A DNA stretch of 64,000 nt from Fusarium oxysporum f. sp. lycopersici 4287 (taxonomy: Eukaryota; Ascomycota; Sordariomycetes; Hypocreales; Nectriaceae). This document shows, piece after piece, positions 6,592-64,000 of this stretch. How positions within the stretch are numbered: position 1 is the stretch's first letter; each line of letters opens with the position of its first letter. The notes under the pieces were generated by a model, which did no database searches, was not told where the DNA came from, and saw only the letters and a list, made by a program, of their open reading frames with translations. The stretch is from contig NC_030997.1 of NCBI RefSeq assembly GCF_000149955.1, positions 1,054,001 to 1,118,000 on the forward strand, in the 5' to 3' direction. Both the position numbers and the translations under genes were made by a program.

Positions 6592-9270
6592 ATGCGGCTC
6601 ATAAACGTTGAGAACCTAAAGCTGGAAACCTTCATCGGCAGCCAAATCCCACCATACGCTATCTTGTCGCATCGATGGGGAAATGATGACGAGGAGGTCA
6701 CCTTCAAGGATATGACGAGAGGCACTACAGAGAAGGTCGGAATGACAAAAGTGAAAGGCTGCTGTCGCCAGGCCAAGAAAGACAACCTCAAATATGCTTG
6801 GATCGACACTTGCTGCATCGACAAGGAGAGTTCTAAAGAGCTAGATGAGGCTATCAACTCCATGTTTCAGTGGTATCGGAGAGCCGATGTATGTTATACC
6901 TACATGGCTGATGTTCCACATGAACAAGATATCTGGGAATCGACTTCCAGCTTCTCCACAAGCTCATGGTTCACAAGAGGATGGACATTACAAGAGCTCC
7001 TTGCTCCTGGGGAAATTCACTTCTTCGATGAGACTTGGAACCCTATTGGAACCAAGGAAGACTTGGCGAGCGAGATTGAAAATATCACGGGGATAGCTCG
7101 CAAATTCCTGCTGGGCTGGGTAGATTTCCATCAAGCAAGCGTCGCACAGCGGATGTCATGGGCATCGAAGAGAAAGACTAAAAGAGAAGAGGACATAGCT
7201 TACTGTCTCCTCGGTATCTTCAACGTTACCATGCCTATGATCTACGGCGAGGGCCACAAAGCCTTCGAAAGGCTTCAACTCAAGATCATGGAGCAGACGA
7301 CCGACGACTCAATATTCGCATGGGGAGTCAAGGTTCAAGGCATGGAGTCAGAATCTCAGACTAGCCCAAGAGAGGATGACATGTCTGCCGGAATTTTCGC
7401 ATCGTCCCCAGCGGACTTCGCCAAATGTGGCCGTATCGTTCCAAAAGCGCCTGACCCGGCATGCATCAACACCTTCGCTGTTTCCGGAGGATACATCCAC
7501 ACTTCGCTCAAGTTACGGAGTTCTCTGAACGGAGTAACGTATGGCCTACTCAATTGTGGTCTCGAAAACACTACAGATGGCATCATCGCCATTCCGCTCC
7601 ATTGCACAACGCCGTCAGTTGTGACTATTAGGGAGTATATCCGACCACTGGGCTATGGCCCTATCCTTCTTTCTGGGCGGCGAACTGACTATCGTGATGG
7701 TCAAGAGGTCCGCATCCGCGTGAATCGGCAGACGCGACCGACGAAAATGACAGGAAGACGCTTTTGGCTCCACATAGATGGCCATCAAAAGCTCAAACTA
7801 CATCTCCAGGAGATTTGGCCACCATTCAGTTGGGACAGGGGGCGTGCTTTTGTCACGGAAATCGATGATATAAATCGGAACTTCAGACGGAAACATCTCG
7901 CTCGCTTTACTACCAGAGCAGAGCGGGGAAGTGATATCATCGTTGTCCTGGACTTCAGCATTGATACAGTAAAGGAATGTGCGGACTGCTTTGTAATAGC
8001 AGCACCTGAATCATTGGATTTAAGTATGATCAATGCAAGCCTGGAATATATGCAACCCGAGCACCTGCAAGACAAAGTCATAGACAATGGAAATGTCATT
8101 GTAAAGGTCTCGGTGGAAATAGAAGACATTCCTCAGGGCTCAATATTTCTGATGAGAATGGCCCGGACCGATGAGAAACCACGAACTATTGTAGATCCCT
8201 GCCACCATATTTCCAAGGCTGCCGAGATGTACATGTTCATTTCATCCCTTTGCCAAGCAGAAATTGCAGAGGACACTATGAAGGAGGTGATTGATGGTCA
8301 AGCCACACCTTCAAAGCTATGGCTATCGTTGAAAGATGAGCTGGATGCGGTAGCAGAAAAGCAGAGACTTCTCGCCGAGGAAAGGGCTAGGATTGAATGC
8401 GAGATGAGAACAGCGAAGGATAGGATACAACAATTCGAGAGTACAATTGAAGAAGGAAGGAAAAGGCTTAAAGAACTCGAGGATCAAACAGCAGGGCATG
8501 CGAAGAACCTGGAGGAAATGGATGGAGCCGACGGTCCAGCGAATTGGGTCGAAACTTTGATACAGAACCAGTTGAATAAGCAAAAGGCACCTCGAAACAC
8601 AGAAATTCCGGTTTCTGCGGGCCCAAGCCTTCTCCCGACACGCCTGATTAACAACCAGCAAACCATGGGCGGTTACATCCCCCTGCTCTGGGCCGCTGCC
8701 AATGGAAAGAAGAGGATCTTACGAGCCCTTATTGACAGGGGTGCAGACCTAGAAGTCAGAAATACCGATAACTCATACACAGCTCTTATATATGCGGCAG
8801 CATATGGAAGAGTCTCTGCAGCAAGCCTGCTTCTCAGAAAGGGCGCGATGATAGAAGCCCGGAATAAGGATGGAGATAGCGCCTTGATGGTGGCGGCCCA
8901 CGAGGCACATGCATCGGTAGTTTCACTCCTGATTGACAGAGGAGCTGATATCGAAGCACGAAATACCTTTGGGAACACACCGCTTTCCATTGCTGCGAGA
9001 CGAGGACGGGATGCCGTGGTCAAAGCACTGCTGGAGAAAGGGGCTGATATAGAGGCGAAGAACCAATGGGGAGACACGCCCTTATCACGAGCATGTATCT
9101 ATGGCCGTGTGGGCGTCGCCAGGATGTTGATTGATAAGGGAGCCAAAGTCGACGTGAAGAACAAGAAAGGCGTTACACCTCTGCAACTGGCAGAGAAGAA
9201 CGGACAGACTGAGGTCGTTGATATGCTCCGGGCTTATCCCATTGTGTTAAATCAGAAGTGTATTTTCTAA
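6592..9270 (+). CDS. HET domain - coiled coil - ankyrin repeat protein (NLR-like)
   Basis: 892 residues in one uninterrupted exon. The N-terminus is a classic heterokaryon-incompatibility (HET) domain: YAILSHRWG (about residues 22-30), KYAWIDTCCIDK, a FTRGWTLQELLAP block and the DIAYCLLGIFNVTMPMIYGEG block (about 200-225). A middle region of unknown fold is followed by a long heptad-rich coiled coil (about residues 580-645). At about 693-885 come six ankyrin repeats with the usual LLxxGADIEARNxxGxTPL spacing. In fungi HET domains act as death effectors in non-self recognition; here the ankyrin array would be the sensor or scaffold, and this build resembles STAND/NLR receptors but without a NACHT domain. 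It lies next to an AT-rich relic and a retrotransposon, a common setting for such fast-evolving genes. The start at 6592 begins the conserved RLINVENLKLETF motif. Confidence 0.93.
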   Translation: MRLINVENLKLETFIGSQIPPYAILSHRWGNDDEEVTFKDMTRGTTEKVGMTKVKGCCRQAKKDNLKYAWIDTCCIDKESSKELDEAINSMFQWYRRADVCYTYMADVPHEQDIWESTSSFSTSSWFTRGWTLQELLAPGEIHFFDETWNPIGTKEDLASEIENITGIARKFLLGWVDFHQASVAQRMSWASKRKTKREEDIAYCLLGIFNVTMPMIYGEGHKAFERLQLKIMEQTTDDSIFAWGVKVQGMESESQTSPREDDMSAGIFASSPADFAKCGRIVPKAPDPACINTFAVSGGYIHTSLKLRSSLNGVTYGLLNCGLENTTDGIIAIPLHCTTPSVVTIREYIRPLGYGPILLSGRRTDYRDGQEVRIRVNRQTRPTKMTGRRFWLHIDGHQKLKLHLQEIWPPFSWDRGRAFVTEIDDINRNFRRKHLARFTTRAERGSDIIVVLDFSIDTVKECADCFVIAAPESLDLSMINASLEYMQPEHLQDKVIDNGNVIVKVSVEIEDIPQGSIFLMRMARTDEKPRTIVDPCHHISKAAEMYMFISSLCQAEIAEDTMKEVIDGQATPSKLWLSLKDELDAVAEKQRLLAEERARIECEMRTAKDRIQQFESTIEEGRKRLKELEDQTAGHAKNLEEMDGADGPANWVETLIQNQLNKQKAPRNTEIPVSAGPSLLPTRLINNQQTMGGYIPLLWAAANGKKRILRALIDRGADLEVRNTDNSYTALIYAAAYGRVSAASLLLRKGAMIEARNKDGDSALMVAAHEAHASVVSLLIDRGADIEARNTFGNTPLSIAARRGRDAVVKALLEKGADIEAKNQWGDTPLSRACIYGRVGVARMLIDKGAKVDVKNKKGVTPLQLAEKNGQTEVVDMLRAYPIVLNQKCIF

Positions 9271-9526
9271 CCTTAGGATTGACTTATAAACTTAATACTG
9301 CCACGACCTTCTAATTACTCTAAACCTTCTTCTAGTCTAACCTTCTTCTCGGTCCTAATAGCACTAATATATATATTATTATAAAACCTTTGCCAGTTAG
9401 GTTAAGCTTTTATTATATATTAATATTTATTAATAAATCTAAAAGCTATATATCTTACCTAGAAGTTAAATATACTTATCCTTATAACCTTTAATTAATT
9501 TATATAGCTAGGTTATTAAAGTTCTC
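9271..9526. other. AT-rich relic DNA, left side of the insertion
   Basis: Strongly AT-rich sequence dense in TA steps, with no coding potential, running to the retrotransposon target site. Composition matches the right-hand block 17513-18160, so both were probably one tract before the insertion. Probably RIP-degraded old repeat DNA. Confidence 0.7.
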
Positions 9527-9600
9527 TATAATGTTACGACCCCGCGGTTACGTCACGTGTACCCCACTTTTCTCAACCTATCACTAAGGACTTTCAAGAC

Positions 9601-9686
9601 GATCACGTCTCAGACCGTGATCGCCTACAAAGGATCACGACTTCGACCGTGATCCCTCTGTTAAGATCACGACCGTAACCGTGATC
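9601..9686. promoter_or_regulatory. three phased palindromes in the LTR U3 region
   Basis: Three copies of GATCACG-N8-CGTGATC start at 9601, 9633 and 9665, an exact 32-bp period; arms are 7 bp (8 bp in the second) and each spacer is 8 nt but different in sequence. A fourth half-site GATCAC lies at 9694. The array ends about 20 bp upstream of the TATA box, where an enhancer of the element would sit. The same array is in the 3' LTR at 17196-17281. Confidence 0.8.
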
Positions 9687-9705
9687 ATCTAAAGATCACC
9701 TTTAG

Positions 9706-9712
9706 TATATAG
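9706..9712 (+). promoter_or_regulatory. LTR TATA box
   Basis: TATATAG lies 39-45 bp upstream of the putative transcript start defined by the self-primer match at 9751. Spacing is typical for an RNA polymerase II TATA element. Confidence 0.6.
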
Positions 9713-9914
9713 AACACATTCATTTGCACTTTCATAGATTCTAGCTCACCAGCTATCAATAAAACTTCTTTACATTGATTAAGCCTAACACGCATTAAAT
9801 CTACCATTAAGAGACGTGACACTTCGATAAGCTCAGTTTACGCCCTATGCAATCTGCCAATAATAAACCTAGCACGGCTTAGTTTATCTACAGTTGGAAA
9901 CCAACCGTCACACG

Positions 9915-9923
9915 TTGATAGCT
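9915..9923 (+). other. primer binding site, self-priming type
   Basis: TTGATAGCT, two bases after the 5' LTR, is the perfect reverse complement of AGCTATCAA at 9751-9759 inside the LTR, just downstream of the TATA box. This is the Tf1/sushi arrangement, in which the 5' end of the RNA folds back to prime minus-strand synthesis. No tRNA-type PBS starting TGG is seen. Confidence 0.7.
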
Positions 9924-9966
9924 CTTGTTTAGACCGTACTGCGTAACGCTAAGTAATATCTATGCA

Positions 9967-12900
9967 ATGGCACCTGTTACTCTAAGCCGCCCTTCGACTA
10001 CCGGACGTTCCCAGCACGTCACACCTCCTGAGGAACCTCGACCTCTTGCAGAGGAACTCCAGGAAGTCCTAATAGAAACGGACGAGGAAGGAGACATTAA
10101 GAGTCCTCCTATCCACCTAAACTCTCACGAAGACGAAGTCAAGAAACTCAAGAAGAAACTTCATAACCTGGGGGAGCAACACAATACCCTCCTGGACAAC
10201 GCCAAGAACAACGCCAAAATCGCGCAGAACCGAATCGAGGCCTTAGAGAAAAAGGTAGCCGACCTCGCCGAAATTGCAGAGTCACTCGGAAAAACAGCCG
10301 AAAACAGTCAGAGGCTATACAAGGAACATATCGAACATACCCAAGCCCTCGTTGCTACCAGAAAAGACCCTAGAGAGATCCTTCGACCTCGTCAGCCTAA
10401 TTCTTTCAATGGCAACGCCGACAAATTGCAAGGATTCCTTACTAGCCTCCGGAGCTACCAGATGTACTATCCAATTTAGTTTACGACCGAAGAATTAAGA
10501 GTACGACATAGTATAGGATTCCTCAAAGACAAAGCACTGCAAATAATAGAACCTATTATCCGCGACTATGTTAATAATCTACCTGATAAACAACAACTAG
10601 TAACTAAGTATGTCTACGAAAAATACGAGCACTTCGAATCCGAACTCAGAAATGCTTTTGGAATCATAGACGAGAAACAAATGGCAGAAATAAAGATCCG
10701 ATAACTCAAACAGAAAGGATCTGCCGCAGACTACCTTACAGAATACCGTTACTAAGCAGCGAAATTAAACTGGGGCGAAGAAGCCTACATGGCATAAGTA
10801 TACTTAGGACTTAAGTCCGAAGTCAAGGATGCCATAGTAAACATCAGACCTAAACCCAAGGATCTGAATAAACTTGCCAGTATTGCTATAGAAATCGACA
10901 ATCAACAGTATAAACGACGCAGGGAAAAGCAAGCTGAGAAACACGGAGGGTCGTATAACCCCCGATGGAACACCAAACAGCAACACGCCAACTAAGGGAA
11001 GAAACGACAGAACGATACCTCGTACAGTACCGACGCAGGACCTATAGTCATTGCGATGGCCAAACGAGACAAAACCCAAATCACTTGCTATAACTATGGC
11101 AAGAAAGGACATTACGAACGAGAATGTAAGAACCCCGTTAAAACTAACCAAAAATACAGGCCAGTACCCAAAGGTAAGAAAATCAATATGGTCAAGAAAA
11201 ACGACGAACCTCAGATGGTAATTAAAACCATTAACATAACAAGAAAAGATGGATACGATATAATACAAATGATACGAATCGACAACTTCGACCTATCTCT
11301 CGATATATGCAACCTATTCCTTAGCAAGGAAGAAACTCTCGAAAAATACTACTAAAACCTGGACCTAGAATAACGACCCGTACTAGGATACACAGCCCTC
11401 GTAGCAACAGTTCACACACAAAGCAAAAGTGAAAAACAGGCGAAGAAAAGAGCGTATAATGCGAAGAGACGAGAAGACCCCGAGTTCAGAAGAAAAGAAA
11501 GCGAACGATAAAAACAACAAAGGATAAAGGCAAAATAAAACGCAGAAGTCGAACTCAAATAGGTACCGGTACCTAAACCAGAAGCATAACACCTCACCAA
11601 GGGAAAATCTGTATTCATGGTCAAAAAGGGAAAGGAAATTGCCCCTAACACAGACAATGAACCGAGTACCAAGATAATCAACCAGGAAATCGACAACATT
11701 CCTATCAAGGTCACCTCGCGATGACCAAATCAACATATCAATGACCCTAACTATTTGGAATCTTACAAAGTCCAAAGAAAATCCGACACTAGGAAACTCT
11801 GGAACACCCGTCATTGGACAATCTGGAACACCCCCTATCGGTCCATAATTCCGACGAATTCAATCAACGTTTCTGGAACTAGTAAAACATCAGAAATATA
11901 CGGAACTCGCCAGAGAACGAGCAATCACGGAGCAAGACGATAATATTTATATCCGAGCTCACACAAAGGAAGCATTGGAAGACCCCATAATTCCAGAAGA
12001 ACGTATGCAAGCCGAAAGGGACCTAAGGAGGTACCTAGATTACCCGAATTACAGGCAGATATCTTGGATATTATGTATATGAAACTATTGTCTATGACAC
12101 TGGCAAGATAAAGTAGCAAATAACTGCTTCCTAGTATAAGTCCTAGAACATTAAGAACAGAAACCCTACTTAATTATTAATATACTCGGATACTAAGTTA
12201 TAAAGAGATATAGAGGATCTTAAGTAGCAAAACTAGAAGCTTATATAGAAACACGAGAGCGAGCCCTAGCGCATATTTAGAACTCCTGATATATTGTATA
12301 ATAGAGACAGAATATACAACAAGAAGTCGAGATCGCAGAAGAAGAAGCATCTTAAGACGAATAGGATATCTTCCGACAGCTAGATAAATAACAGCTGCAA
12401 GAACGATTAGAAGAAACAAAAAAAGAAAAAGGAAGACCCCTTACCGAAGAAGAGAAAGCAGATATCATCCTAGACCACGAGGTAGGAAAAATAGAAGCTG
12501 CTTATTAACAAAAATTAGCTACCCAGAACGAATATCCCAGCGACATTAACTGCACCAAGAGCAAATGCAGCATGGATTACCCATAGGGAAAAGGCACGCG
12601 CCATCTGTAACAGAGCGACAGATAGGCGAAAAATCAGAGGCTAAACTACCTAAGAAAGCTCTGAGAATGGCAACGAAAGGACGCCAACAAACCTGCCTAG
12701 AACTAAAAGTCAGAATCAAGGGCAAGTAGCTAAGTGCACTTGTAGATAGCGGAGCCGACATGAATTTCATTTCCCCTATAACAGTTAATAAACTAAGGCT
12801 ACTATAGAAGGACAAGAACGACCCATATACAGTATATAACAGACAAGGAGAAACCTATCTATACGAAAACGGAAATATCACCAGAGAGATTAATTACCTC

Positions 12901-15900
12901 AAGGTATTCATTAACAGAAAGAACCAAGGTATCGACTTCGATATTATCCCAGTATGGAGATATAATCTAGTACTTGGATACCTATGGCTATTACGCTACA
13001 ACCTACAATTCAACTGGAGAACTGGCCAGGTGGACTGCAAAGACCACCCTTCAGATGATGGAAGCAATTCAGGCTACGACACGAGATCTCAAACTTCGAC
13101 TAAAGAGAGCAGCAAAGACAGGAGCGGCAAAGTACCGCCTATTCCAAAAGGAACGCGACATAAATACCATAAAGGCAAGGTTAAATACATCAGACGAACG
13201 ATAGCATCTCTCAAAGGACAGTTCAAACAACTAGACTAAGACATTAAACAGATGAAACAGATTGCCGCAAAGGAATCTGACAAACAACTCAAGAACATAC
13301 CACCGGAGTATCATATCTATGAGAAGTTGTTTCAAGAGGAACTAGACACAAAGTTACCTTAATACACGGACTACGATATTAAAATCATACTAAAGGATAG
13401 AAAGAACCCGAAATTCTTCCCCATCTATAATCTATCTTAAGACGAACTAGGAACGCTCAGAGAATAGATAAACGATATGCTACGGAAAGGATACATTAGA
13501 CCGTTAAAATCCTCAGCAGGATATCCGGTTATATTCATACTAAAACCCAATTCGAACAAACTACGACTTATAGTAGATTACCAACAACTCAACGAGATTA
13601 CTAAAAAGGACAGAACACCGTTACTACTTATCACCGAACTTAAGGACCGTCTATTCGGCAAAAAATGGTTTACCGCCCTCGATCTCAAATCTGCTTATAA
13701 TCTCATTCGAATTAAAGAAGGCGACGAATAGAAAACAGCCTTTCGAACGAAATACAAACTATTCGAATATTTGGTTATGCCTTTTAGATTAACCAACATA
13801 CCCGCAGTATTCTAACGCATAATTACAAACGTACTTCGAGAGTACCTTGATATCTTTGTAGTTTGCTACCTAGATAATATCCTCATCTTCTCTGACACAG
13901 AAGAAGAGCACACAGAACACGTCCACAAGGTTTTAAAAGCACTACAAGACGCCAACATGCTCGTTAAACCCACTAAAAGCCACTTCCACCAGTCTCAAGT
14001 AACATACTTAGGACATGAAATCTTATACAACGAAATCAGGATAGATAGGCGAAAGATTGCAGCAGTCACCGAATAGAAACCACCTATATCGGTAAAAGAA
14101 ACCTAATCCTTCCTAGGATTCGCTAACTACTACCGACGATTCATTAAGGACTTCAGTAAAATTGCTATCCCCCTCACCGAGATTACCAAGAAGGACAAAC
14201 AATTCCAATAGAACGACAAGGCACAAGAAGCTTTCGGGAAGCTTAAAGCATCAATTATAAGCAAACCCGTCCTAGTTATATTCGACCCAGACCGACAAGT
14301 TGAACTCGAAACCGATGCTTCCGACTTTGCCCTGGGAGGACAAATAGGACAACGAGACGACAACGGTGTACTACACCCTATTGCTTTCTATTCTCATAAG
14401 ATGCATAGAGCAGAGCTCAACTATCCCATCTATAACAAAGAATTCCTAGCTATTATCAACTGTTTTAAGGAATTTAGATACTACCTCAGAGGAAGCAAAC
14501 ACCCAGTAAAAGTTTTCACTGACTACAAGAACATAGCTTACTTTGCGACAACGCAAGAGTTAAACCGACGACAACTATGCTACGCCGAATACCTATGTAA
14601 ATTCGACTTCACCATAGCGCACTGTAAAGGAACAGACAATAGACGCGCAGACGCCATTAGTCGACGACCAGACTTTAACACTGGAACTATCAAGACCAAG
14701 GAATAACTCTTAGAAACCAACTCTAAAGGAGAATATCAGTTCACATAACCTATTAAAACCATCGCCTTAACCCGCAAAGGAATAACAGAAGAAGAAAAAT
14801 AACGCTACATCGGATTTAAGAAATACATCTCCATGCAACAATTAAAAGAACACCATCGAGATACGCACGAGAAACCCGAAGAAGCCAGCGCAAGCCATCT
14901 TTCCTGGTATTTCAGATCAGGAAGAGACAAACGAATCAGACAAATTATAGACAAATGCCCAATCTGCAAGAAAAAACCACAGGGATGGAGATACCCAATA
15001 CAATCCCTCACAGACCAAGATAAGCAAGAAAGAGTGGAACAAGAATTCATCTACGAAATCCACGCACACCCATTACATGGACACCAAGGAGTCACGAAAA
15101 CAATAAAACGACTTCAAGAACTAGGCTACCGCCATTTCAAAAAGGGACAAGTTAAAAAGGTCATAAAACAATGCGATTTATGTGCAAAAACAAAAGCGCA
15201 AAGACACAAACCTTATAGACAACTACAACCCTTGCCAGTAGCACAACGACCTTGGGATTCGATCACAATGGACTTCATAACCAAACTACCCTTATCAGAA
15301 GAACCCTTAACCAGAATCTTCTATGATAGTATTATAGTTATTATTAACCGACTTACAAAGTTCTCTTACTACCTACCCTACAGAGAAGCAATAGACGCAG
15401 AAGAACTTTCTTATGTTTTTTACCGACACATTGTTAGCATACACAGGTTACCTACAGAAATCCTTTCGGATAGAGGACCTATATTTGCAGCAACATTTTG
15501 GCAATTACTTATGGCACGACTTGGACTAAACCACCGACTTACGACAGCGTTTCGACCGCAAGTCGATAGATAAACCGAACGAATAAATTAAGTACTTAAA
15601 TAATACCTACGGTGTTATATCAACTACAAACAGAACGATTAGGTTGAGAAACTACTAATAGCCTAACTCGCCTATAACACCGCATACAACGAAAGTACAA
15701 AGCTTATACCAGCCTATGCCAATTTTGGATTCACACCGAACGCATATCACGATGCACGATAAGAAAAATCAATTAACCTAGCCGCCATACTCAAAAGTGA
15801 TGACCTCAAAAACCTACATAAAGAAATGAAAACAGAACTCGAATTTGTCAGAAAACGCATGAAAAACTACTACGACCTAAAACGGTTGAAGGGACTAACC

Positions 15901-16335
15901 TTTTCGGAGGGAGATATGGTCTACCTAGCCACAAAAAACATCAAAACAGATCGACTAACTCACAAATTGGACTATAAATTCATCGGACCCTATAAAGTAC
16001 TATAGAAAATTTCAGAAAATAACTATAAACTGGACCTACCACCGAAAGTTAGGCTCTATCTAGTCTTTTACGTTTTATTACTTGAATCAGCAGCAGATAC
16101 AATACAAGTCAAAACAAGCAACAAACCACGAGAAATCTTAGGACTAGAAGTCTACAAAGCAGAAGCTATCAAGAAAACCCGCATAAAAAATGGCCAGAGA
16201 GAATACCTTATAAAATAGAAAAACTACCTAGAAAGCGAAAACACATAGGAACCTCTAAAATACCTCGTTAATGCCCAACGACTCTTAAAGAACTTTCACC
16301 AACCCCGGAACTCCTCAAAGGCCCGACATCGTTAA
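9967..16335 (+). pseudogene. gag-pol polyprotein of the Ty3/gypsy element, many in-frame stops
   Basis: One reading frame (starts at 9967 or 9925) runs without any indel from gag to the chromodomain and ends at TAA 16333-16335. Landmarks: coiled-coil gag to about 10480, zinc knuckle near 11086-11127 (its second Cys is now Tyr at 11095-11097), protease LVDSGADMNF with catalytic Asp at 12745-12747, RT LDLKSAYNLIRI near 13679 and the catalytic box at 13867-13878 reading YLDN instead of YLDD, RNase H LETDASDFALGG near 14308, integrase HHCC and DFITKLP region 15050-15590, chromodomain about 16150-16320 in which two expected Trp codons are TAG (16216-16218 and 16246-16248). Stops include TAG 10477-10479, TAA 10702-10704 and TAA 10753-10755. 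Every defect is a point transition, as RIP produces. It cannot encode an active polyprotein. Confidence 0.93.
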
Positions 16336-16423
16336 ACTCATCACCAAGGCCTAAAGACGCCCAGTCAATATCGTTAGGAACACCCAACGATTAAAGATCG
16401 TTAACCACCTATTCCTCGTAAGA

Positions 16424-17009
16424 CTACAAAGCAGGAAGAATGTTATCCTCCTTGTCAAGCTCTTGCATTCCCCGCTCAAACAACTCAGCACCTCGTTCCT
16501 TCACCCTCTTCTTAATCTTACAAATCCATTGCAAACGACTCACCGCCTCAGCCAGAGAGGACTGCAACTCTATAAGCTCCTTGTGAAGAACCAATACCTT
16601 ATCACCCGCCTCTTCTTCCTGAGCTTCTAACTTCTCTTGCTAATCCACCAAACGATTCACTACCAAAGTCAGCACATATCGAGAAGGAAGAATAAAGAGT
16701 ACTCATACAAGTAGACGCAACACGGACACCGTCACAAGAACGACCTCGACGAACGCATTCAAGACAACGACTAGACTTCTTAACATCGTCAAAGCGACAT
16801 TCCTTTTTATTTTTAAAATAATACGTGCACGGCATCGCAGCAGGAAGACTGTTCTTAACCGCAAAACGATGGAGCGAAGCGCGATCTTCGGTCGTGTCCC
16901 TTCTCTCGGGAACTTCGTCACCGGACTCGAACAAGTTTTCAATCGCCTCTTGCGGGATAATCGATTTTTTGGATTTCTTGGATGAACGTTTCGTTACGCG
17001 ACCTGACAT
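16424..17009 (-). pseudogene. antisense spliced ORF of the retrotransposon: Cys-rich plus coiled-coil protein
   Basis: Runs against gag-pol between its stop and the 3' LTR. Exon 1 (17009-16709) starts MSGRVTKRSSKKSKK, continues acidic, then has a Cys-rich motif C-X9-C-X10-C-X2-C-X6-C (CTYYFKNKKECRF... RCLECVRRGRSCDG). A well-formed 49-nt intron at 16660-16708 (donor GTATGAGT, branch GCTGAC, acceptor TAG) joins exon 2 (16659-16424), a Glu/Lys-rich coiled coil ending ELDKEDNILPAL. Spliced length would be 178 residues, but exon 2 contains one TAG (16640-16642), explicable as a RIP change. I recall many fungal hypothetical proteins with the same SSRCxECVRxGRSCDG motif followed by a coiled coil, but cannot check here. 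Function unknown; the retained splice sites and frame suggest a real element-encoded protein. Confidence 0.7.
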
Positions 17010-17111
17010 CGTGTCAGCATCCTAAGAAAATTAATACAGGTTTAAGTTGCAACCTACCGAGGCGAGATTAGCCTAACAGGTGATATGCAGGTCTTGGGGA
17101 CAAGACCCAAC

Positions 17112-17120
17112 GGAGGGGAG
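17112..17120 (+). other. polypurine tract
   Basis: GGAGGGGAG, ending six bases before the TG of the 3' LTR, the expected site of plus-strand priming. Confidence 0.6.
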
Positions 17121-17126
17121 ACATCG

Positions 17127-17507
17127 TGTTACGACCCCGCGGTTACGTCACGTGTACCCCACTTTTCTCAACCTATCACTAAGGACTTTCAAGACGATCA
17201 CGTCTCAGACCGTGATCGCCTACAAAGGATCACGACTTCGACCGTGATCCCTCTGTTAAGATCACGACCGTAACCGTGATCATCTAAAGATCACCTTTAG
17301 TATATAGAACACATTCATTTGCACTTTTATAGATTCTAGCTCACCAGCTATCAATAAAACTTCTTTACATTGATCAAGCCTAACACGCATTGAATCTACC
17401 ATTAAGAGACGTGACACTTCGATAAGCTCAGTTTACGCCCTACGCAATCTGCCAACAATAAACCTAGCACGGCTTAGTTTATCCACAGTTGGAAACCAAC
17501 CGTCACA
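17127..17507 (+). repeat. 3' LTR, 381 bp
   Basis: Second copy of the LTR, same length and termini. It is preceded by a purine-rich tract and followed directly by the TATAA target duplication. It carries one RIP-type change (CpA to TpA, near 17329) relative to the 5' copy. Confidence 0.97.
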
Positions 17508-17512
17508 TATAA

Positions 17513-18160
17513 AATATCCTTAATAGTAATTACCCTCTTAGTAGACTATAAGTTATATATTAATTAGGGATATAATCTAAGCTTAATTTCTTTTTTTAAT
17601 TAACTTAATAATCTTTTTATTTTTCTAAAAATTAGTACCTAAAAGGGCTTTTAATACCTTTTTTTTTACTTAATAACTTTTTTAATCTCCTAAGGAAGGT
17701 CTTAATATATAATATCTAAAATAAAAATACTAAGAATTATAAGATTAAAAATAATATTACTAAGAAGCTTTTTATACTCTTAACTATTAATAAAAGCTTT
17801 TATTTTAATTATTATAGCTTTAAGCTTTTTAAAATTATTTTATATTTTAAGTTAATTTTTAATAGCTTAGAGGTCTCTTAGATTAATAGGGAAGTTATTA
17901 ATATAGTAATTTTAATATTAATTAGGGAAGGCTATTAAGATAAGCTTTCTTTTTAGTATTACTATTTTGCCTTTTTTATTAGATTTTTTCTTTATATATT
18001 ACTAAGTTAAATTATCTTAGTAGGTATATTAAAGCTTCTTATATTTATATAAGTAGTTAAATAAGTTATCTTTTAGGCTTTTATAATATTAGCTTTATAC
18101 TATAGTAATTAGTTAGGTATTATAATATAATATCTAAGTTATAAGCCAGATATATTATTT
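17513..18160. other. AT-rich relic DNA, right side of the insertion
   Basis: About 650 bp of extremely AT-rich, TA-dense sequence with recurring AAGCTTTT/TTAATA words and no coding potential. It continues the tract 9271-9526 across the retrotransposon and has the look of heavily RIP-mutated old repeat DNA. Base composition shifts back to normal near 18160. Confidence 0.7.
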
Positions 18161-19279
18161 GCAGTTAAGACTTATGGCTAAGAGCTTATATCAGCATAGA
18201 GAACTTAGCTCCGGGCTTATCTGGCGACAAAGGAAGAGGAGGGACGAGAACCAAGTCAGGTGTTACCATAGTGATTTAATATTAAATTCTGAGTGAGAGG
18301 CCTTCTGCAAATTTGAGGATTGTCAGCTTAGCTCGTAGTTCACGTTAAGCAATTACATGATCCCACAGATCTTCAGCTTTCATGACTGATGTTTGAAGGG
18401 CATTTCACCCAGCATACATAGGCTGCACTTTTTGATGCTCAAGGCAGCCGCCGAAAAAAGGTTGGTCATCTCATGAGTCATCACATAGATCTGTTGTCAT
18501 ATGGGAACTTAAGGGTTGTTCTTCATGGTCACTCATCCCTGTATTACATGCTCAATAGGGAAGTCTAACACGTCCCGACAGCCGAACCGCAATTTTGGTA
18601 ACCAAATTTTGACTTTGGTGTGGTGATTGCGAAAGTGTTCACCGTACAAAGTATCTTTAAATACTCAGGTCGGGATTAGCTGGTATAGAATATTCTATTC
18701 CCTTGTGATTATGAGAACACCCCGAAAAGGTCTTTGCTATTATTTTCTCATTACTAAATGACCATCAGTAGGGGCACTTCATTTAATCGGTCATGAGTGA
18801 TAGTTAATGTGAGTGTAGTCTGTTCAGACTTTCACTTTTTGAACCTAAATAGGTTTTTGACCACTGAGGGTTGACCAAAAATTGGCGCAGAATTTATATT
18901 GTCTCGAGTGCAAACTTTCTGCGGCTCAAATACGAAAGTTTCTCAACTTTTTACATGGCTCTCTGCCAAATACTGGTTTTATATCCTCTGACAATTGAAG
19001 GTCTTTTTGAAGCTTTGCTGCTCAAGGAAAGTTTCCCTGGCCTATAAAATCTGCCTCTTCTCCATGGTTCTGTCCCAGAAATCTCAACATTGCAAATACA
19101 TCACGGAATCGTTTGAGGTCAGCCTGCCATATCACATTCCATATTGTACAATACGACGCTGTACAATAAACCCTTGTGCACCATCAGCATCTGCACTACA
19201 AAAAATTCGTACACTAGCTTTGTACGCTTCAGCTTTGTACATCATCCAGTTGTACGCTCACGCTCACGGCCTACTCACC
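18161..19279. other. intergenic, nothing recognised
   Basis: Normal-composition DNA with no protein signal. Just upstream of 19280 the core word GTAC recurs (about 19145, 19154, 19210, 19223, 19237 and 19253), some copies extended to GTACA, which may be promoter architecture of the next gene. Confidence 0.4.
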
Positions 19280-19744
19280 ATGGTTCACACACGTTCCCAG
19301 AAGCGCAAGGCTGAGGACTCTGAGCCTCAAGACCAAGCTCCTGTCTCCACCGGCAACTCCTCCAAAGTTGCTTTCGTTAAGGCCTTCAAGGGCGGTAAAC
19401 GCCCTAAGGTAGCCCGCGATGATGACGACCAACTCACCGTGCCAGCACCACCGGTCACAGTGCACCGCCACCACAACTTGAAAAAACTTATTATTCGCAA
19501 CAAGACCTCAAGGAACCAATCCATGTACCCCATGGTGATTCCTGTAATCTTTCGTGGTGTTCAGGCTGAAGAGCCTGAAGACAAGCCCATCGAGTTCACT
19601 TTCCGGTGCGAACTTCGCCCAAAGTGTCCCGACACCAAGCAGAATTATCTGCCCACTCAACAGCCCGCCACTGGTACAGTCCAGAAGAAGAGGATAGCCC
19701 CAAAGCCGGTGCAGTCAGATAAGCAACCAGCTCGAAAAACGTGA
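19280..19744 (+). CDS. basic hypothetical protein
   Basis: 154 residues from the ATG in context CACCATGG, which is a good eukaryotic start and preferable to the in-frame ATG at 18995. The protein opens MVHTRSQKRKAED, a bipartite-like basic nuclear signal, has a second basic run GGKRPKVARDDDD, and ends Lys/Arg-rich. It has only two cysteines and no recognised domain. The stop at 19742-19744 is followed at 445 bp by the truncated PNP-NACHT-WD40 gene. It could be the N-terminal exon of a larger gene or a young open frame. Nuclear location is inferred from composition only. Confidence 0.45.
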   Translation: MVHTRSQKRKAEDSEPQDQAPVSTGNSSKVAFVKAFKGGKRPKVARDDDDQLTVPAPPVTVHRHHNLKKLIIRNKTSRNQSMYPMVIPVIFRGVQAEEPEDKPIEFTFRCELRPKCPDTKQNYLPTQQPATGTVQKKRIAPKPVQSDKQPARKT

Positions 19745-20188
19745 TGAACAAGCCAACAGGGTGGATCGCCCTTCACACCTTTGTCTAATGAGGCTTGTGA
19801 GCAGGCGATATCCATGGCGGTCTCCGTTTTCATCAAGAACTAGGTGAGAAACATAAAAAACTAAATACTAGTCGAAAATGACCTAACATTGGGATGCTTT
19901 TAGGTCCTCGCGAACAACCGGGCGAAGGGTGAAACCACCTTTTAGGACCATAGTGCCTGAGGAGCATTGTCTGGTCTTGCCCCATGATTGTGGTATTTAT
20001 TGTCAGATTAACGACCTGCATATTACGATGCGGTTGCGGATGTATATGTTACAAAAGTCGAAGGAGTCGCCTCTGTCAAAGCCTCGCGTGCTTATTACGA
20101 GACATTTAGCACTGCAATTGGGTGGTTTTTATTTTATTTTTTATTTTTTCTGGCTCGATGTATCCCACTAAGATATCACAAGCTCTAA

Positions 20189-23100
20189 CTAGAGAACGAC
20201 CGTCTTTTCCCATCAGACTATGACCACGTTGGCGGGAAGACATGCGCGAAGTGCGATATCTCTCGCAGAATCGATCGCGAGGAACGGGAAACTACAGAGC
20301 CGATGATCCATTATGGAGTTATTGCTTCAGGCAACACTCTTATCAAAGACGCAACTTTTAGAGATAACCTCGCAGAGAGCCTAGGCCACCAATGCTTGTG
20401 TGTCGAGATGGAAGCCGCAGGCTTGGTCGATAGGTTCCCGTGTCTTGTTATTCGCGGTATTTGCGATTATGCCGATAGCCACAAGAATGATCAGTGGCAG
20501 AGATATGCAGCATCTACTGCTGCCGCATTTGCCGTAGAGCTTCTGGGCCACGTTCCCGTGCGGCAACTCAAAGAGTCTCCACGAGTTCTTGAGATACTAC
20601 AGTCACGTTAGTATACCAACTTCGCCATCCTCTAGTTGGACCTGCTACTAATGTTACTTCAGTGGAAGGCAAAGTGGACTCCATGAGGTAAGTCACTCGC
20701 TCGTAAGTATGGCTAGTTTATTTATCTCTTAACAGTCATCGAATGCAGCAGACCGATCTCACCTCGACCCTTGACCAGCTCCCCTTTGTAGCTGAAGCTC
20801 TATTCAACTCTTACGCTGAGGAGCATAGCCCGATGTGCCTACCAGAGACACGAGTTCAGCTTCTCGCTGAGATAGACGAATGGGTCACGAGTTCTGAGTC
20901 AAAGACCATATTCTGGCTAAATGGTATGGCAGGAACAGGGAAGTCGGCCATATCACGTACTGTTGCACAGCGGCAGTTGGAGAGAGACTGTCTTGGTGCA
21001 AACTTCTTCTTCAAAAGAGGAGAGGCAAGCCGAGGGAACATGTCGAAGCTGATTCCTACCCTGGCACGCCAATTAGCAATACATATCCCTGGTATGATCA
21101 GTTTGATCAAAAATGCCATCGATGCTGATCCGTCGCTCCCAACGAAAACTCTTGCTGAGCAGTTTGAGAAGCTTTTCAAAGAGCCTCTTAGGAAATTGGC
21201 AGCTTCTTCATCAGATCCAACGTCCCTTGTCATTGTCATAGACGCCCTTGATGAGTGTGAAGGGGAATTCCAAATCAAACGTATAATTTCACTCTTTGCT
21301 GATATGGAATACCTAGATTCGCTGAAACTCAGAGTGTTAATTACGAGCAGACCAGAACTTCCGATTCAGCTTGGATTCCTAGATATCAACGGTATGTACC
21401 AGGGTCTTGAGCTCCACAGCATCTCACAAGATATCATGGAGCACGACATATCTATATTTCTCCAACACGAGTTGGGTATAATACGACAGAACTTTAATTA
21501 TGTGGTTCACAGCGACCAACGGCTAGCTGAGCAGTGGCCGGGCACTGTCAAGATTAGACAGCTTGTTTCCATGACACTGCCCCTGTTCATCGCTGCGGCA
21601 ACTATTTGTCGGTTCTTGAATGATGCTACTCTTGGTGGCCCGGATGAGCTTCTGGTGAGGATTCTTGAGTCCAGTAGCCGCACGCATATGTCTCGGTTGA
21701 ACGACATATATTCCTCCATTCTCGCCTCACAAGTGGTCAATAGACCGAGGAGAGAGCGAGAAGAGGTCGTCAAAAGCTTCCAATCAAGCGTTGGCGCCAT
21801 CGTCACATTAGCAACGCCGTTGACAATCAATGCTCTATCATCATTGCTTAACATCCCTGCCACGACAATTGATATGAAGATCAAGGTTCTTCAGTCTGTT
21901 CTCGACGTACCCAAAACCCCAGAAGTCCCTGTTAGGATCCTACATCTATCGTTCCGGGATTATCTCGTTGATCCTGATCTGCAAGGAGCTATGGAGTTCT
22001 GGGTGGACGAACAGGCCACGCACCGGAGACTGGCAAGTCGTTGCCTCTTCGTCATGAGTTCGATACTTCGTGAAAACATATGCAGACTACCCTTTCCGGA
22101 AACGTCTCCATCTGAGATCGAAGGCCTGGACCCGCAGAAGTTCATACCTCCGGAGCTTGACTATGCTTGTCATTACTGGGTACACCATTATGTCTCCTCG
22201 AACACCCAAGAGTGCGAGGCGCATGAAATCTATCCATTTTTAGAAAAGCATCTGCTCCATTGGTTGGAAGCAATGAGTCTGCTTGGTCATACCACCGACT
22301 GTCTGACTATATTACATGCATTGGATGAATGGCTAGAGGTACGTTGTCTTCTTCAAATCCGAGTGCGTCATACTTACAATCTACAGAAATACTCTCCTGT
22401 GAAGACCTCTCGGACCTTGTCAAAGACGCTCTGAGATTCATCCGAACTCACTTTTCCATTATTGATGAAGCCCCACTACAGGTCTATTCGTCAGCAATAG
22501 TATTCTCGCCAACAAATAGTATCGTGAGACGTCTTTTCGCGAGTCGAGTCCCTAGCTGGCTTCTAGCCTGGCCAGTAGTCGAGGATGAGTGGGGCCCATG
22601 CTCCTTGGTTATAGGTCACATTGCTGTAGTCAAGTCAGCTATCTTCTCACCTGATTCAAAAACTATCGCATCGATATATGCTGACAATACTATTCGAATT
22701 CTTTCAACGAAGACTGGTAAATGTGAGCATGTATTAGCGGGACACTCTGGTGAAATCCAGTCAGTAGTCTTCTCACAAGACTCCAGAATCCTTGCCTCGA
22801 GCTCAACTGGTGGTACGGTACGGATCTGGAACTTGCAGACGGGAGAGTGTGGCGAAGTCTTGAAGTATCCCTCACCTACAGGAAAGGCTTTTGCCTTCTC
22901 TCGCGACTCGAAGGTATTGCTCACAGAAAGTGGAAACCAATTCGTAAGAATCTGGAAGACACAAACTTGGGACCATATCATTTTTAGGGGACACACAGGA
23001 GCGGTCAACTCAGCTGTCATTTCACAGGACTCGAAGATGGTAGCCACATCCTCGGATGATGCAACAGTAAGACTATGGAACACTCACACGGGTAGATGCG

Positions 23101-24341
23101 AGAAGATATTGAAGGGCCATACAGGAAAGGTCAATACAGCGGCCATCTCGCCTGACAATCAAGTGCTTGTCTCTGCTTCTGTCGACCGGACTTTACGTAT
23201 CTGGGATCTAGATGCGGGTAAATGCAAAAAGGTGCTCAGGGGCCATGACTGCGATATCCTGTTAGCGGTATTTTCTCCCGACTCACGTATGATAGCTTCC
23301 GGAGATGTGGAGGGCGGCATAGGGATCTGGAATGCTCGAAATGGAGCATTTATGCACGAACTGAAAAACGGCTTGTGCGACGAGAAATACGAGTCGTTGA
23401 TGTTTTCAGAAGACGCGACAAAACTTATTGCAATCCTCAGCACACGAACTGCTCTGATACATGATATTCAGAGCGGAAATTGTGAGCAGGCCTTTGCTTT
23501 CCCATCTAAAAGTTTGAATTGGTCAGTTGAACTTTCGCATGACTTCACTATGATTCTTACAGCTTCTTCGGATGACAATACTGTCCGGATATGGGACCCT
23601 CACACTCAAAGCAAGGTCCTGAAAAGCGCGAAAAGCCGGGATAACGTGATTCTCGAAGTTGAAACATCACCAAATGGGAGAACAGTGGTATTGCGTACGG
23701 CGGGCGGCTATGAGGTTTGGTCACTGCGCCGGAATAAATTCGAATGTCTGCTGGTAGGCGACAGCAACTTCATCCAGTTCTCGCCTGATTTCGCCACGGT
23801 GGTTGTTGCCAATGAAAGGTCTATTACGATCTGTAATGTGGAACCGGGGAACTACACTTGTTCCTTCGACATCAGAGGGATGGTTAAATACTGCCTTTAT
23901 TCGGAGGATTGCAAGATCCTTGTAACATTCCACATGGATCTCTCCATCTGTGGCTGGCATTTGGAAAATCATAACTACAAACGCCTTGCGGATATCGGCT
24001 ATATTCACAACCTTCGAGGTTTCTTCAATCAGCTAAATAGTGGAGACGTCATTCTTGACGGCAATGTTATTCCTGTGGTCGAACCTCTTCGTCAAAGGGT
24101 GCGTATGTGGCCCACCCGGCCGGTTCTGAGACGAGATCAGACATGGATCACGATCGGGAACGAGAAGTTCTTTAGGCTCTCTCCAGAGTGTCTAAACGCC
24201 GAAATAAGCATACCGGGGAGTACAGTCATTGTGGATTGTATTTCTGGGAGACTTGTTATATTAAGCTTTGACGTCGGTAAGGCTGGGCTGCCGCCATCTT
24301 ACATGGAAATGGAGACGAACCTGGATGAATTTTACTATTGA
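20189..24341 (+). CDS. PNP-NACHT-WD40 NLR-like protein, N-terminally truncated, possible frame break
   Basis: Domain order is that of fungal STAND/NLR receptors. Exon 1 (20189-20606) carries only the C-terminal half of a purine/uridine phosphorylase (PNP_UDP) domain: MIHYGVIASGNTLIKDA, CVEMEAAGL and PCLVIRGICDYADSHK. Introns at 20607-20662 and 20688-20735 join it in phase to the NACHT domain with P-loop GMAGTGKSAI and Walker B VIVIDALDEC. From about 22386 to 24341 follow WD40 repeats (RIWNLQTGECG, RLWNTHTGRCE, RIWDLDAGKCK, RIWDPHTQ). Two oddities: the N-terminal half of the PNP domain is absent upstream, where an in-frame stop at 20186-20188 closes the frame; and the canonical intron 22339-22386 leaves the WD40 half out of frame, so either a weak donor at 22343 is used or the gene is broken. 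Likely role: non-self recognition and regulated cell death, possibly no longer functional. Confidence 0.8.
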
Positions 24342-57098: not shown

Positions 57099-57421
57099 GC
57101 TATATACTACTTCGTAAGAACGTTAAACGAAAATTACAAATTCCATCTGCGCAGCTAATCAATTGCGGAAAGGAGGGTCAGCATCAATGGCAGCTTCTGC
57201 TGACAATTGACTGAATACTGAAGGACGAAGGATCCGTCAGCTTACCCTCGGAGACATTTCAAGCTGTACAATGGAAAGAACTATCCGGCAGAGGATAAGT
57301 ATCCGGGTGCATAAAACTGAGTTTGTTAACAGCTCCTCAATTCGCCTTGTGCTCTCAGCCTCAGACCTTTACGATATTGATCCGTTGCCTCGCTTGCTGT
57401 CTCACTAGTCGTTGCACCACA

Positions 57422-58303
57422 ATGGCCTCTGCTCAAAACATCATCAAATGCGCCGTACTTTCTACGAGCCGCAAGATATCTTACAGTATCGCACAAAAAT
57501 CACAAAATGGCCCTTGGATTGTCCTCTCAAACAGCTTCGGCGCTGACACCACTCTGTATCAGCCCATCGCTCAGCGCCTCGCCTCATTAGGCTACCGAGT
57601 CCTGAGTTACGACCATCCGGGTCATGGTCAAAGTAGTCCTGTCAAAGATGTCGATAACGTCGAGATGGAAGAACTGATCAACGACATCGACGAACTCCTT
57701 CGAGTCTTGGACATCGACAGCATCCGCGCCTGGGTCGGCGTCTCACTTGGCGCAGCCAGCGGCGTCTACCTAGCCTGCCGTCACCCAAAATTGATCCAAA
57801 ACCTTGCATACTGCGCATGCCCTCCTGCATCTTTTGGCGCCCTTGATATAATGCCGCTTGATTACTTCGACAAGATGCGCGCTCAGGCTGAAGCAGATGG
57901 GACTACTGCGACTGTTATTCGGCAAATGCACTACGGCTGGGCGAGCAAAGAGTGGCTTGATGAACATCTAGACCAGGATGAACGACTTAAACTTGCTAGT
58001 TCAACTCTGAGTCTCGATGGCTTGCGTGCGATGATGACGTTGCAGAAGAATAAGCGCTTTGACATGCGGCCGCTCGTACCTCAGCTTTTGGAAAGCTGTG
58101 AGAAGATAATGTTTGTTAAAGGAGGCCATGATGCGCACCTCAACCCTTTAGTGGATATGATGAGAGATTTGGTTGTCAAGGCTGCGCAGGAGAAGGGTAT
58201 CGGGAGTGATTTCAAGCTTGTCACCGTGCCGGACTCGGGGCACGTAATGTACTTAGAGAACGAGAGCTATTTTGTTGATGCTATCAAGGAGTTCATTTCC
58301 TAG
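57422..58303 (+). CDS. alpha/beta hydrolase, 3-oxoadipate enol-lactonase-like
   Basis: 293 residues, one exon, starting MASAQNIIKC. Catalytic elements: oxyanion and strand motif WIVLSNSFGADTTLYQP, the RVLSYDHPGHGQSSPV turn, nucleophile elbow GVSLGAA, the acid in FVKGGHDAHLNP and the His in DSGHVMYLE. The pattern LSNSLG(A)-...-YDxxGHGxS resembles bacterial PcaD-type 3-oxoadipate enol-lactonases more than most fungal esterases. In context it would hydrolyse a lactone or a similar intermediate after ring cleavage. It lies head-to-tail, 323 bp after the phenol hydroxylase. No targeting signal. Confidence 0.85.
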   Translation: MASAQNIIKCAVLSTSRKISYSIAQKSQNGPWIVLSNSFGADTTLYQPIAQRLASLGYRVLSYDHPGHGQSSPVKDVDNVEMEELINDIDELLRVLDIDSIRAWVGVSLGAASGVYLACRHPKLIQNLAYCACPPASFGALDIMPLDYFDKMRAQAEADGTTATVIRQMHYGWASKEWLDEHLDQDERLKLASSTLSLDGLRAMMTLQKNKRFDMRPLVPQLLESCEKIMFVKGGHDAHLNPLVDMMRDLVVKAAQEKGIGSDFKLVTVPDSGHVMYLENESYFVDAIKEFIS

Positions 58304-61605: not shown

Positions 61606-62673
61606 TCATTCTTCATCACTTTCTTCTTCAGTCTCCCATTCCTCATATTCCTGCTTTTCCTTATCAACCATATATCTCTCACAGATACCATAGTATGTAA
61701 AAAATGACGGTGCATTCCCAGGGACATCCTCCTCACAGTTTGAAAATACCGTCTCGCGGCTGATCTTGAGAGTCAAGTAATTGTCGTCAAAGAACTGGAT
61801 ATATACCGGCTCTTCGCTTGTTCCCAAGTTATGAGTTTTGGTGCTGCGATACTCTGGTGGTGTGAATCTGTCTATTGAACAGACATCTTCTGCAAGTAAA
61901 TACATGTACCCGGAGTTCCTTTCAGCTCTTAGTGGTAGACGCTGTTCCAGGCTATAATTGTCCCACTCGTAGAAGGGGGCATCAGACTCGATGTATCTCG
62001 TAGGAGCGAGCTCGTAAGGGCAGTGCTTGATATGGTCGATTGACCAGAGCTTGAACATTCTCATGAGGCCAAGTTTGAGAGGCGGGGGCGTCTCGTCGAT
62101 AGATTGAACTCGGGCGAGAGCGTCTTTGATTTCACTGACGCAATGCATCTCGAGTTCGATATCTTCTTTGGTAGTCACCTCTTCGTATGACTTCCAAGGT
62201 CTCAGTTATTTTCTGCGCTGTTTACAAGTAACCCCGGCTTTTCCCGCATCCTCATAAACTTCAATCTCCTGAGCCTCTTTTCTCATTTGCTCTCTTATTT
62301 ACTGTCTCATCTTTCCCTTCTCATCTTCCCACTTCTTATATGTTCGCAATTCTCTCTTGCGGTCACGCCGTTCTTGCTTCATCTCGGCGCACATAAGGTC
62401 AGCGGGGTTGTTTTGGTCGATTTCCTTGTCTGAAACTCGGTCGTCCCCGTCCAAATCTCTGTGTTATTTGCATATAGCATCGCTGCCATAATCGCTGCCA
62501 TTTCTAGAGGCGCAGGAGAAAGTAGAATAATCAGAAAGGTCCTCGTCATAGTCTTCAGGGCGGGTTTGTGAATCTTCGTCCCACGAAGTCGCTTCTTCGC
62601 GGGCAAAGCGGTCTCGTACAAGGTCAGTGACGCGGTGATACCAGTCCGGTCTAACTATTGCACCCAAAAACAT
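61606..62673 (-). pseudogene. 356-codon hypothetical gene with three in-frame TAA stops
   Basis: The same minus-strand frame runs from ATG 62673 (MFLGAIVRPDWYHRVTDLV) to the stop at 61606 without an indel, but is interrupted by TAA at 62464-62466, 62299-62301 and 62206-62208. Sequence between and after the stops keeps protein character: KEIDQNNPADLMCAEMKQERR, KKWEDEKGKMRQ, LRPWKSYEEVTTKEDIELEM, then LWSIDHIKHCPYELAPTRYIE and a very acidic tail. Each TAA is one transition from CAA (Gln), which fits RIP-type or other C-to-T change. Introns do not remove all three stops convincingly. The downstream 190 codons might still be translated from ATG 62178. No domain recognised. Confidence 0.6.
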
Positions 62674-63376: not shown

Positions 63377-63799
63377 CTACTTTGATCTGGCATCACCTGT
63401 CGCCCGCTTCTTATCACCGCCATCAAACCAACCAACATCAGTTTGAAGAAAGAAGCTCTCAGCCTCAGCATCAGAAGGCTCACGTTTCTCAGTCTGATCA
63501 CGCTTCACAATCGGAGTTCTCTTGTCAATTGTAGTGCGCTTCTTATCTCCGCCATCAAACCACCCAACGTCTGTTTGAAGGAAGAAGCTTTCAGCGTCAG
63601 CGTCAGCTGGAGCACGCTTTTTGGTCGAGGGCTTCTTAGATATGGCACGTTTCTTATCGCCGCCGTCGAACCAACCGACATCAGTCTGGAGGAAGAAACT
63701 CTCGGCTTCGGCTTTCTTGGAAAGTTGGCTATTGGCAGGCGTAGGTGCTGCCAAAGCAAGTAGGGGAGCGCTGAGCGCCAGAATATGAGAGACCTTCAT
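63377..63799 (-). CDS. Kex2-processed repeat precursor of three identical secreted peptides
   Basis: 140 residues from ATG 63799. Signal peptide MKVSHILALSAPLLALAAPT (cleavage around A18-A22). Three identical cores SFFLQTDVGWFDGGD occupy residues 34-48, 71-85 and 115-129. Each is preceded by an acidic X-Ala run (AEAE, DADAE, DAEAE) and followed by the dibasic KKR; spacer pieces are themselves bounded by KK, KKR, KR, KR, KR. This is the layout of yeast alpha-factor: Kex2 cuts after Lys-Arg, carboxypeptidase trims the basic residues, and a Ste13-type dipeptidyl aminopeptidase removes the X-Ala pairs. The cores differ at many third codon positions but at no amino acid, so the peptide is under strong selection. 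It is not the Trp/Cys-containing Fusarium alpha pheromone. Candidates: a signalling peptide, or the core of a cyclised ribosomal peptide (dikaritin-like), since it holds Phe and Trp residues. No UstYa/DUF3328 gene is visible in the window, which ends 200 bp upstream of the start. Confidence 0.9.
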   Translation of the reverse strand: MKVSHILALSAPLLALAAPTPANSQLSKKAEAESFFLQTDVGWFDGGDKKRAISKKPSTKKRAPADADAESFFLQTDVGWFDGGDKKRTTIDKRTPIVKRDQTEKREPSDAEAESFFLQTDVGWFDGGDKKRATGDARSK

Positions 63800-64000
63800 G
63801 TCGTTAAGGTTTCTGGCTCTTGTTTTCAAGATAGGTGATGATAGTAGAATAGAGTTCAACGTTGATGAATGATGTCGCTGTCGCCTGCCTGTAACTTCTT
63901 GTGATCATGATGAGCTTATATCCTTATTTTATTCTACTTATCTCGGTGCAATGCTGTGCCGAAATTGATGTTATGGTCCTTCGATACATCCTTTGAAAAC
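63800..64000. other. promoter side of the repeat-peptide gene
   Basis: Noncoding to the window edge. A TATAAGCTC-like element (about 63912-63920 on the minus strand) lies about 115 bp upstream of the start codon. Confidence 0.35.

Follow-up and report, generated by a model that had tools for sequence, protein, structure and literature searches.

The dikaritins (ustiloxin, phomopsin, asperipin-2a, and victorin) are made from Kex2-bordered repeat precursors encoded beside UstYa proteins with the signature HxxHC(x)nHxxHC. A 2022 review counts five of them (PMC10512285), and very few UstYa-dependent peptides have a known structure. According to the text of a survey of Kex2-processed repeat proteins (KEPs), ustiloxin, phomopsin, and asperipin-2a are cross-linked through Tyr, and the ustiloxin cores are four residues long (YAIG) (PMC7329392). 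Victorin is described as cyclised through Phe (PMC9233826), and Tyr is thus not obligatory in the class. The same KEP survey states that 22% of 7878 KEP genes have a DUF3328 (UstYa) neighbour, with Tyr in 65.6% of the repeats of these genes and no Tyr in about one third (PMC7329392). Macrocyclisation, hydroxylation, and halogenation are attributed to the DUF3328 family; its member CctR is reported as a binuclear copper enzyme bound to the membrane, which depends on the HxxHC residues and O2 and loses its activity once the conserved His/Cys of both HxxHC motifs have been mutated (PMC12435403).

Here we describe a gene pair at the right-hand end of a 64,000-nucleotide stretch of the Fusarium oxysporum f. 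sp. lycopersici 4287 genome (the window; contig C12). It comprises a UstYa-linked KEP gene with unusual features: a long frozen core, no Tyr, a copy number of one to three, and a compact two-gene locus. As the best explanation, the KEP is probably the Kex2-processed precursor of a RiPP on which the divergent UstYa/DUF3328 oxidase acts, the two forming a compact "dikaritin"-type system.

The precursor gene and its core copies

The precursor gene lies at 63377-63799 of the window on the minus strand, where an intact open reading frame (ORF) with 34 database homologues encodes 140 residues plus a stop, with a single Met and no intron needed for reading. The protein starts with a probable signal peptide, MKVSHILALSAPLLALAA (63746-63799, minus strand), judged by eye from the translation and matched by a similar N-terminus in most rows of the precursor alignment (A1). 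ORF translation and codon comparison place three identical 15-residue cores, SFFLQTDVGWFDGGD, on the same strand. Copy 1 (63656-63700) is preceded by KK-AEAE, copy 2 (63545-63589) by KR-APADADAE, and copy 3 (63413-63457) by KR-EPSDAEAE; every copy is followed by KKR and has Glu directly before it. The whole protein contains neither Cys nor Tyr. The Kex2-type repeat build, the exact coordinates, and the three identical cores between dibasic borders proposed in the first-pass annotation are therefore all recovered, and so is its remark that a core without Cys is distinct from the Fusarium alpha pheromone, the classical gene of which stands separately in the genome. With at least three repeats of at least 8 residues, none above 100, between KR/KK/RK/RR, the precursor fits the KEPs described by Le Marquer 2019 (PMC6339444) and by Umemura 2020 (PMC7329392), as judged against the repeat definition in the text of the latter.

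Only one match was returned by a protein search of the 61.2-Mb genome, revealing no second precursor copy, and the three matches of the pattern DVGWFD across the genome all fall inside the precursor gene. The precursor also matched Pfam LPD23 (E 9e-4; 19.4 bits, below the curated cut-off of 27), which was taken as spurious, as was the PF18838 label on one database row of the family.

The three core copies differ in their codons and agree in their residues. Over the 15-mer, the pairs of copies differ at 10, 8, and 5 nucleotides, and over the block E+15-mer+KKR at 13, 10, and 7; the absence of amino-acid change reported by the first-pass annotation stands, and its "roughly 6-9" differences per pair is corrected by these counts. 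The 19-codon block has 57 sites, of which 14 differ between copies, every one of them synonymously (P ~7e-11, assuming that changes are independent and random over synonymous and non-synonymous sites), and 14 of the 18 codons with synonymous alternatives vary. The copies are thus old, and each core copy is under purifying selection.

Conservation of the core in two genera

A protein database search identified 27 precursor homologues at E up to 0.001, and a profile of 10 sequences (E up to 1) added seven to give 34; as scoring in the profile search was limited to the 7995 candidates with the most shared words, some distant relatives may have escaped it. Together with the window protein these make 35 proteins and 75 core copies, none of which was dropped, with three copies in 13 proteins, two in 14, and one in 8. 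The sequence SFF[L/I]QTDVGWFDGGD is exact in 49 of the 75 copies (two 15-mers, 27 + 22). Glu occupies position -1 in 73 copies and Ala position -2 in 70, and a dibasic pair follows within five residues in 71. Trp10 is present in 73 copies and Phe2, Phe3, and Phe11 in 70-71, and Tyr occurs in or just before the core in two; most of the flanking columns farther out are far more variable than the core. The named sources (P0008, P0009, P0047, and P0052 aside) are Fusarium and Colletotrichum, including F. graminearum, F. verticillioides, C. higginsianum, and a Fusarium close to F. oxysporum. As Fusarium belongs to the Hypocreales and Colletotrichum to the Glomerellales, the core is conserved across two genera and has hardly changed between two fungal orders, a pattern that points to a single conserved target.

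The freely varying cores that the first-pass annotation would have counted against itself are not what we see. Five sequences (P0005, P0012, P0014, P0022, and P0025) have altered cores or borders, and all are placed by NCBI in the F. fujikuroi species complex, so some lineages may be able to do without the precursor gene. Among the single-copy proteins, P0048, P0049, and P0051 (Colletotrichum, 62 residues) look like complete short proteins, and P0024, P0052, and P0025 look like odd gene models. In the P0025 model (F. phyllophilum), the altered precursor runs into sequence resembling the ORF at 62464-62673 of the window, so either a local deletion or a mis-joined model is involved.

These altered relatives are the one point in favour of a repetitive ORF without function, arisen by chance or by recent tandem duplication; copies that differ synonymously only, and 34 homologues with a near-frozen core, leave that explanation with virtually no likelihood. 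A secreted peptide of Fusarium and Colletotrichum that acts on plants as an effector or toxin, modified or not, deserves more weight. Both genera have a plant-associated lifestyle, although presence in two such genera is weak evidence, and the 75 copies give no sign of core diversification, which speaks against such a role. Known dikaritins do include the plant-active toxin victorin (PMC9233826). We regard a plant-directed role as possible and rather doubtful; it differs from the RiPP reading in function alone, so that the odds of the two overlap.

A divergent UstYa gene beside the precursor

The next gene found beyond the precursor is a UstYa/DUF3328 gene on the plus strand at C12:1118541-1119434 (541-1434 of the adjoining stretch, L002), just past the window end, assigned by the Pfam UstYa profile. 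Its three predicted exons (L002:541-796, 847-910, and 963-1434) encode 263 residues. The two genes are divergent (head-to-head), with start codons 741 bp apart, and positions 63800-64000 are the window's share of the intergenic region. The neighbour that the first-pass annotation proposed to look for beyond 64000 is therefore present. The protein matches PF11807 at 154 bits over profile positions 8-220, carries the two HxxHC motifs as HQLHC at 165 and HKFHC at 194, and shows, by eye, a hydrophobic stretch at residues 47-70. Its homologues at E <= 1e-60 number 18, the best being 97% identical and from F. oxysporum f. sp. cubense; both motifs are found in 12 of the 13 aligned homologues and neither in the distant Xylariales row P0043. 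With at least seven UstYa loci (at least 11 matches) in 61.2 Mb, the chance that a UstYa gene starts within 2 kb of a given gene is ~5e-4 by our own arithmetic.

Locus tags and contig sizes, rather than a reading of the DNA, also place the two genes together in all three species for which both came from one annotation. FGRMN_5658/5659 of F. graminum and FZEAL_4074/4075 of F. zealandicum are consecutive tags, on contigs of 64,440 and 53,520 in size respectively for both members of each pair. In F. verticillioides, FVEG_13902 and FVEG_17652 share a contig size of 2,860,106, which gives no gene-to-gene distance. Both genes are on record for F. graminearum, F. decemcellulare, and C. higginsianum too, with contigs of different size for the two and from unmatched strains; these three neither support nor refute linkage.

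A tree of the UstYa protein and 13 of the 18 homologues places Colletotrichum beside the deeper Fusarium lineages, with 3 of 11 inner branches well supported; these 14 proteins do not separate horizontal transfer from vertical descent. The five homologues left out (P0033, P0034, P0035, P0042, and P0045) all end at the same place, following NDIRKM, and seem to be truncated gene models. Two solved structures matched UstYa at E 0.069 and 0.65 and were not credible, and an AlphaFold2 model of the close homologue P0028, built with 13 of the 18 homologues in the alignment, was set aside at a mean pLDDT of 47 and a pTM of 0.28.

Domain scans of 38 flanking ORFs, selected from many more listed and with stretch L005 left out, revealed catabolic enzymes, permeases, and regulators, and no dedicated RiPP peptidase, second UstYa, or tyrosinase. 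An alpha/beta-hydrolase ORF at 57299-58300 of the window, ~5 kb from the precursor, also matches serine aminopeptidase S33. The tyrosinase that the first-pass annotation suggested seeking nearby did not turn up: the genome gives 23 matches, with none on C12.

Leader register and the pheromone explanations

In alpha-factor precursors, as described in PMC6339444, the residues after the Kex2 site come off as X-Ala/X-Pro pairs. The first-pass annotation had read AEAE, DADAE, and DAEAE as X-Ala leaders of this kind; the strings are there, but their register relative to the Kex2 site is wrong, and they are not X-Ala leaders in the alpha-factor sense. A scripted Ste13-type stripping from the dibasic site reached the core in none of 65 testable copies, a testable copy being one with a dibasic site (KK/KR/RK/RR) within 20 residues upstream; seven of the other 10 copies have no upstream site and three have a distant one. 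As a control, the same stripping with KR/RR as the site trimmed 9 of the 10 repeats of the genome's own alpha-pheromone gene, one of these nine having no leader. Most internal copies of the precursor family lose just a first X-P pair, the first copy (KK-AEAE) loses nothing, and in one P0005 copy the stripping proceeds to the Glu at -1. When an optional X-P pair and one extra residue are removed, the X-Ala ladder ends at the conserved Glu in 49 of the 65 copies, so a 16-mer starting with ESFF is a possible product.

The classical alpha-pheromone gene lies on C2, with six exact motif matches at 4051354-4051947 and ten repeats in its ORF. Its product (WCTWRGQPCW) and the window precursor are alike in a signal-like N-terminus, repeats, and KR borders; the window precursor differs in having no Cys and no WCxWRGQPCW core, a leader that cannot be trimmed by dipeptidyl removal, a UstYa gene beside it, and a core near-identical across two genera. 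According to the KEP survey, 213 of 216 putative or annotated fungal pheromones (98.6%) have no DUF3328 neighbour (PMC7329392). The only Ste2 receptor match in the genome is on C7, so that none occurs on the precursor's contig, where a GPCR gene had been suggested. We reject an alpha-factor precursor on the leader register, the separate C2 gene, and the UstYa neighbour, and the "alpha-factor-like" framing of the first-pass annotation falls with it. Even a variant mating precursor, which would account for the superficial build and the Ala-rich leaders ahead of each core, is very improbable, as the same core in Fusarium and Colletotrichum further argues against a species-recognition pheromone.

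The product might instead be an unmodified, linear secreted signalling peptide, pheromone- or hormone-like, with the adjoining UstYa serving something else. The KEP build, the signal-like N-terminus, the frozen core, and its lack of Tyr all suit this explanation, as does the ~78% of the 7878 surveyed KEPs that have no DUF3328 neighbour (PMC7329392). We consider it unlikely, since by tags or contig sizes the UstYa gene accompanies the precursor in three other Fusarium species, pheromones overwhelmingly stand apart from such genes in that survey, and no leader of the 65 can be trimmed in the alpha-factor manner.

Proposed maturation and comparison with dikaritins

Returning to the RiPP precursor served by UstYa, we infer that the oxidase would act on this peptide, and likewise the residues changed, the mature ends, and the function suggested below. 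Kex1-type carboxypeptidases remove C-terminal K/R. The precursor would enter the ER, Kex2 would cut after KR and perhaps also after KK, and a Kex1-type enzyme would take off the C-terminal basic residues. The rest of the acidic leader would be kept, or trimmed by another peptidase. Within the secretory pathway, UstYa as a membrane-bound copper oxidase would oxidise or cross-link the (E)SFF[L/I]QTDVGWFDGGD core, and the 15-16-mer, or a longer form, would be secreted. Calculated [M+2H]2+ values for the linear forms are 845.873 for SFFLQTDVGWFDGGD, 910.394 with Glu added at the N-terminus, 945.913 with AE, 1045.953 with AEAE, 1131.977 with ADADAE, and 1146.982 with SDAEAE. As the core has no Tyr, the site of oxidation would be Trp/Phe or aliphatic carbons, with Trp10/Phe11 or the Phe2-Phe3 pair as the likeliest targets. 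The processing machinery in the genome includes one P-domain (Kex2-type) protease match and three DPPIV-family matches.

The locus resembles the dikaritin systems in its Kex2-bordered repeat precursor beside a UstYa protein with both HxxHC motifs, and asperipin-2a in having a single UstYa. It differs in that the core lacks Tyr, the conserved block is 15-16 residues long, no tyrosinase lies on the contig, and some Colletotrichum relatives are single-copy. The missing Tyr counts against a dikaritin assignment; given the share of Tyr-free repeats among DUF3328-linked KEPs and the Phe-closed ring of victorin, it is unusual and not unprecedented. A compound for a conserved, non-diversifying target in fungal development or antagonism is weakly favoured over a species-recognition pheromone. 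The most specific version, in which one UstYa-type copper oxidase installs a Trp-/Phe-centred cross-link or C-H oxidation on a Tyr-free 15-16-mer to give a conserved, hormone-like or antagonistic RiPP signal and not a fast-evolving toxin, is a tentative proposal that we hold at well below even chances. This compact pair of genes occurs in crop-associated fungi that are widely studied, and its Tyr-free core would probe the oxidation range of UstYa.

Four pieces of the core were absent from 5.39 million open papers, and nine locus tags of family members from the open-access literature searched, the KEP survey supplementary tables being outside the search. The core is also missing from the cross-genus motifs whose letters are given in the text of Le Marquer 2019, where motif 1 of its Fig. 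8 is not written out (PMC6339444). The protein may already stand unnamed within the KEP survey tables. Relatives with one or two copies would be missed by both surveys under the three-repeat rule given in their text.

Other UstYa loci and the surroundings of the pair

A scan of ~1.5 kb on each side of the UstYa matches revealed a second divergent pair of a KEP-type ORF and UstYa on C9 at ~153.6-157.4 kb (L006), with four Tyr-containing repeats (YGKAYTLKMKDDGFEKR). The repeat YGKAYTL occurs four times, in each case with KR and then E/D-P ahead of it, and stripping removes just this first E/D-P pair in all four. The C9 locus shares the divergent arrangement with the C12 locus and differs in its Tyr-containing repeat of another sequence; it is probably of the classical dikaritin type, and its arrangement speaks for the UstYa-served reading of the C12 precursor. 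Three further UstYa loci (C3:2023757, C6:2437456, and C3:4169302) have a 32.3-bit exon match in common, and two of them also a 98-bit match, which suggests recently duplicated copies.

Several other features were observed around the pair. At L002:3397-4155 (C12 ~1121397-1122155), an amino-acid permease gene appears to be interrupted by a 759-bp insertion that has inverted ends CAGGGTTCAAATCCA and the 8-bp duplication AGTATAGG on either side; the insertion resembles a non-autonomous hAT element. A fungal rhodopsin-domain (PF20684) ORF lies at L003:1002-1541 (C12 ~1129.0-1129.5 kb), ~10 kb from the UstYa gene. Within the window, a HET-domain protein with ankyrin repeats (6562-9267), and an ORF for an NPHP3_N-type ATPase with a WD40-repeat ORF after it (20707-24338), are presumably genes of the fungal self/non-self recognition type. 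The region 8001-20000 is a probable transposon block: its G+C is low (0.40-0.44), the AT skew at 8-16 kb is strong (0.25-0.30), and an ORF of the integrase zinc-binding type occupies 14803-15570.
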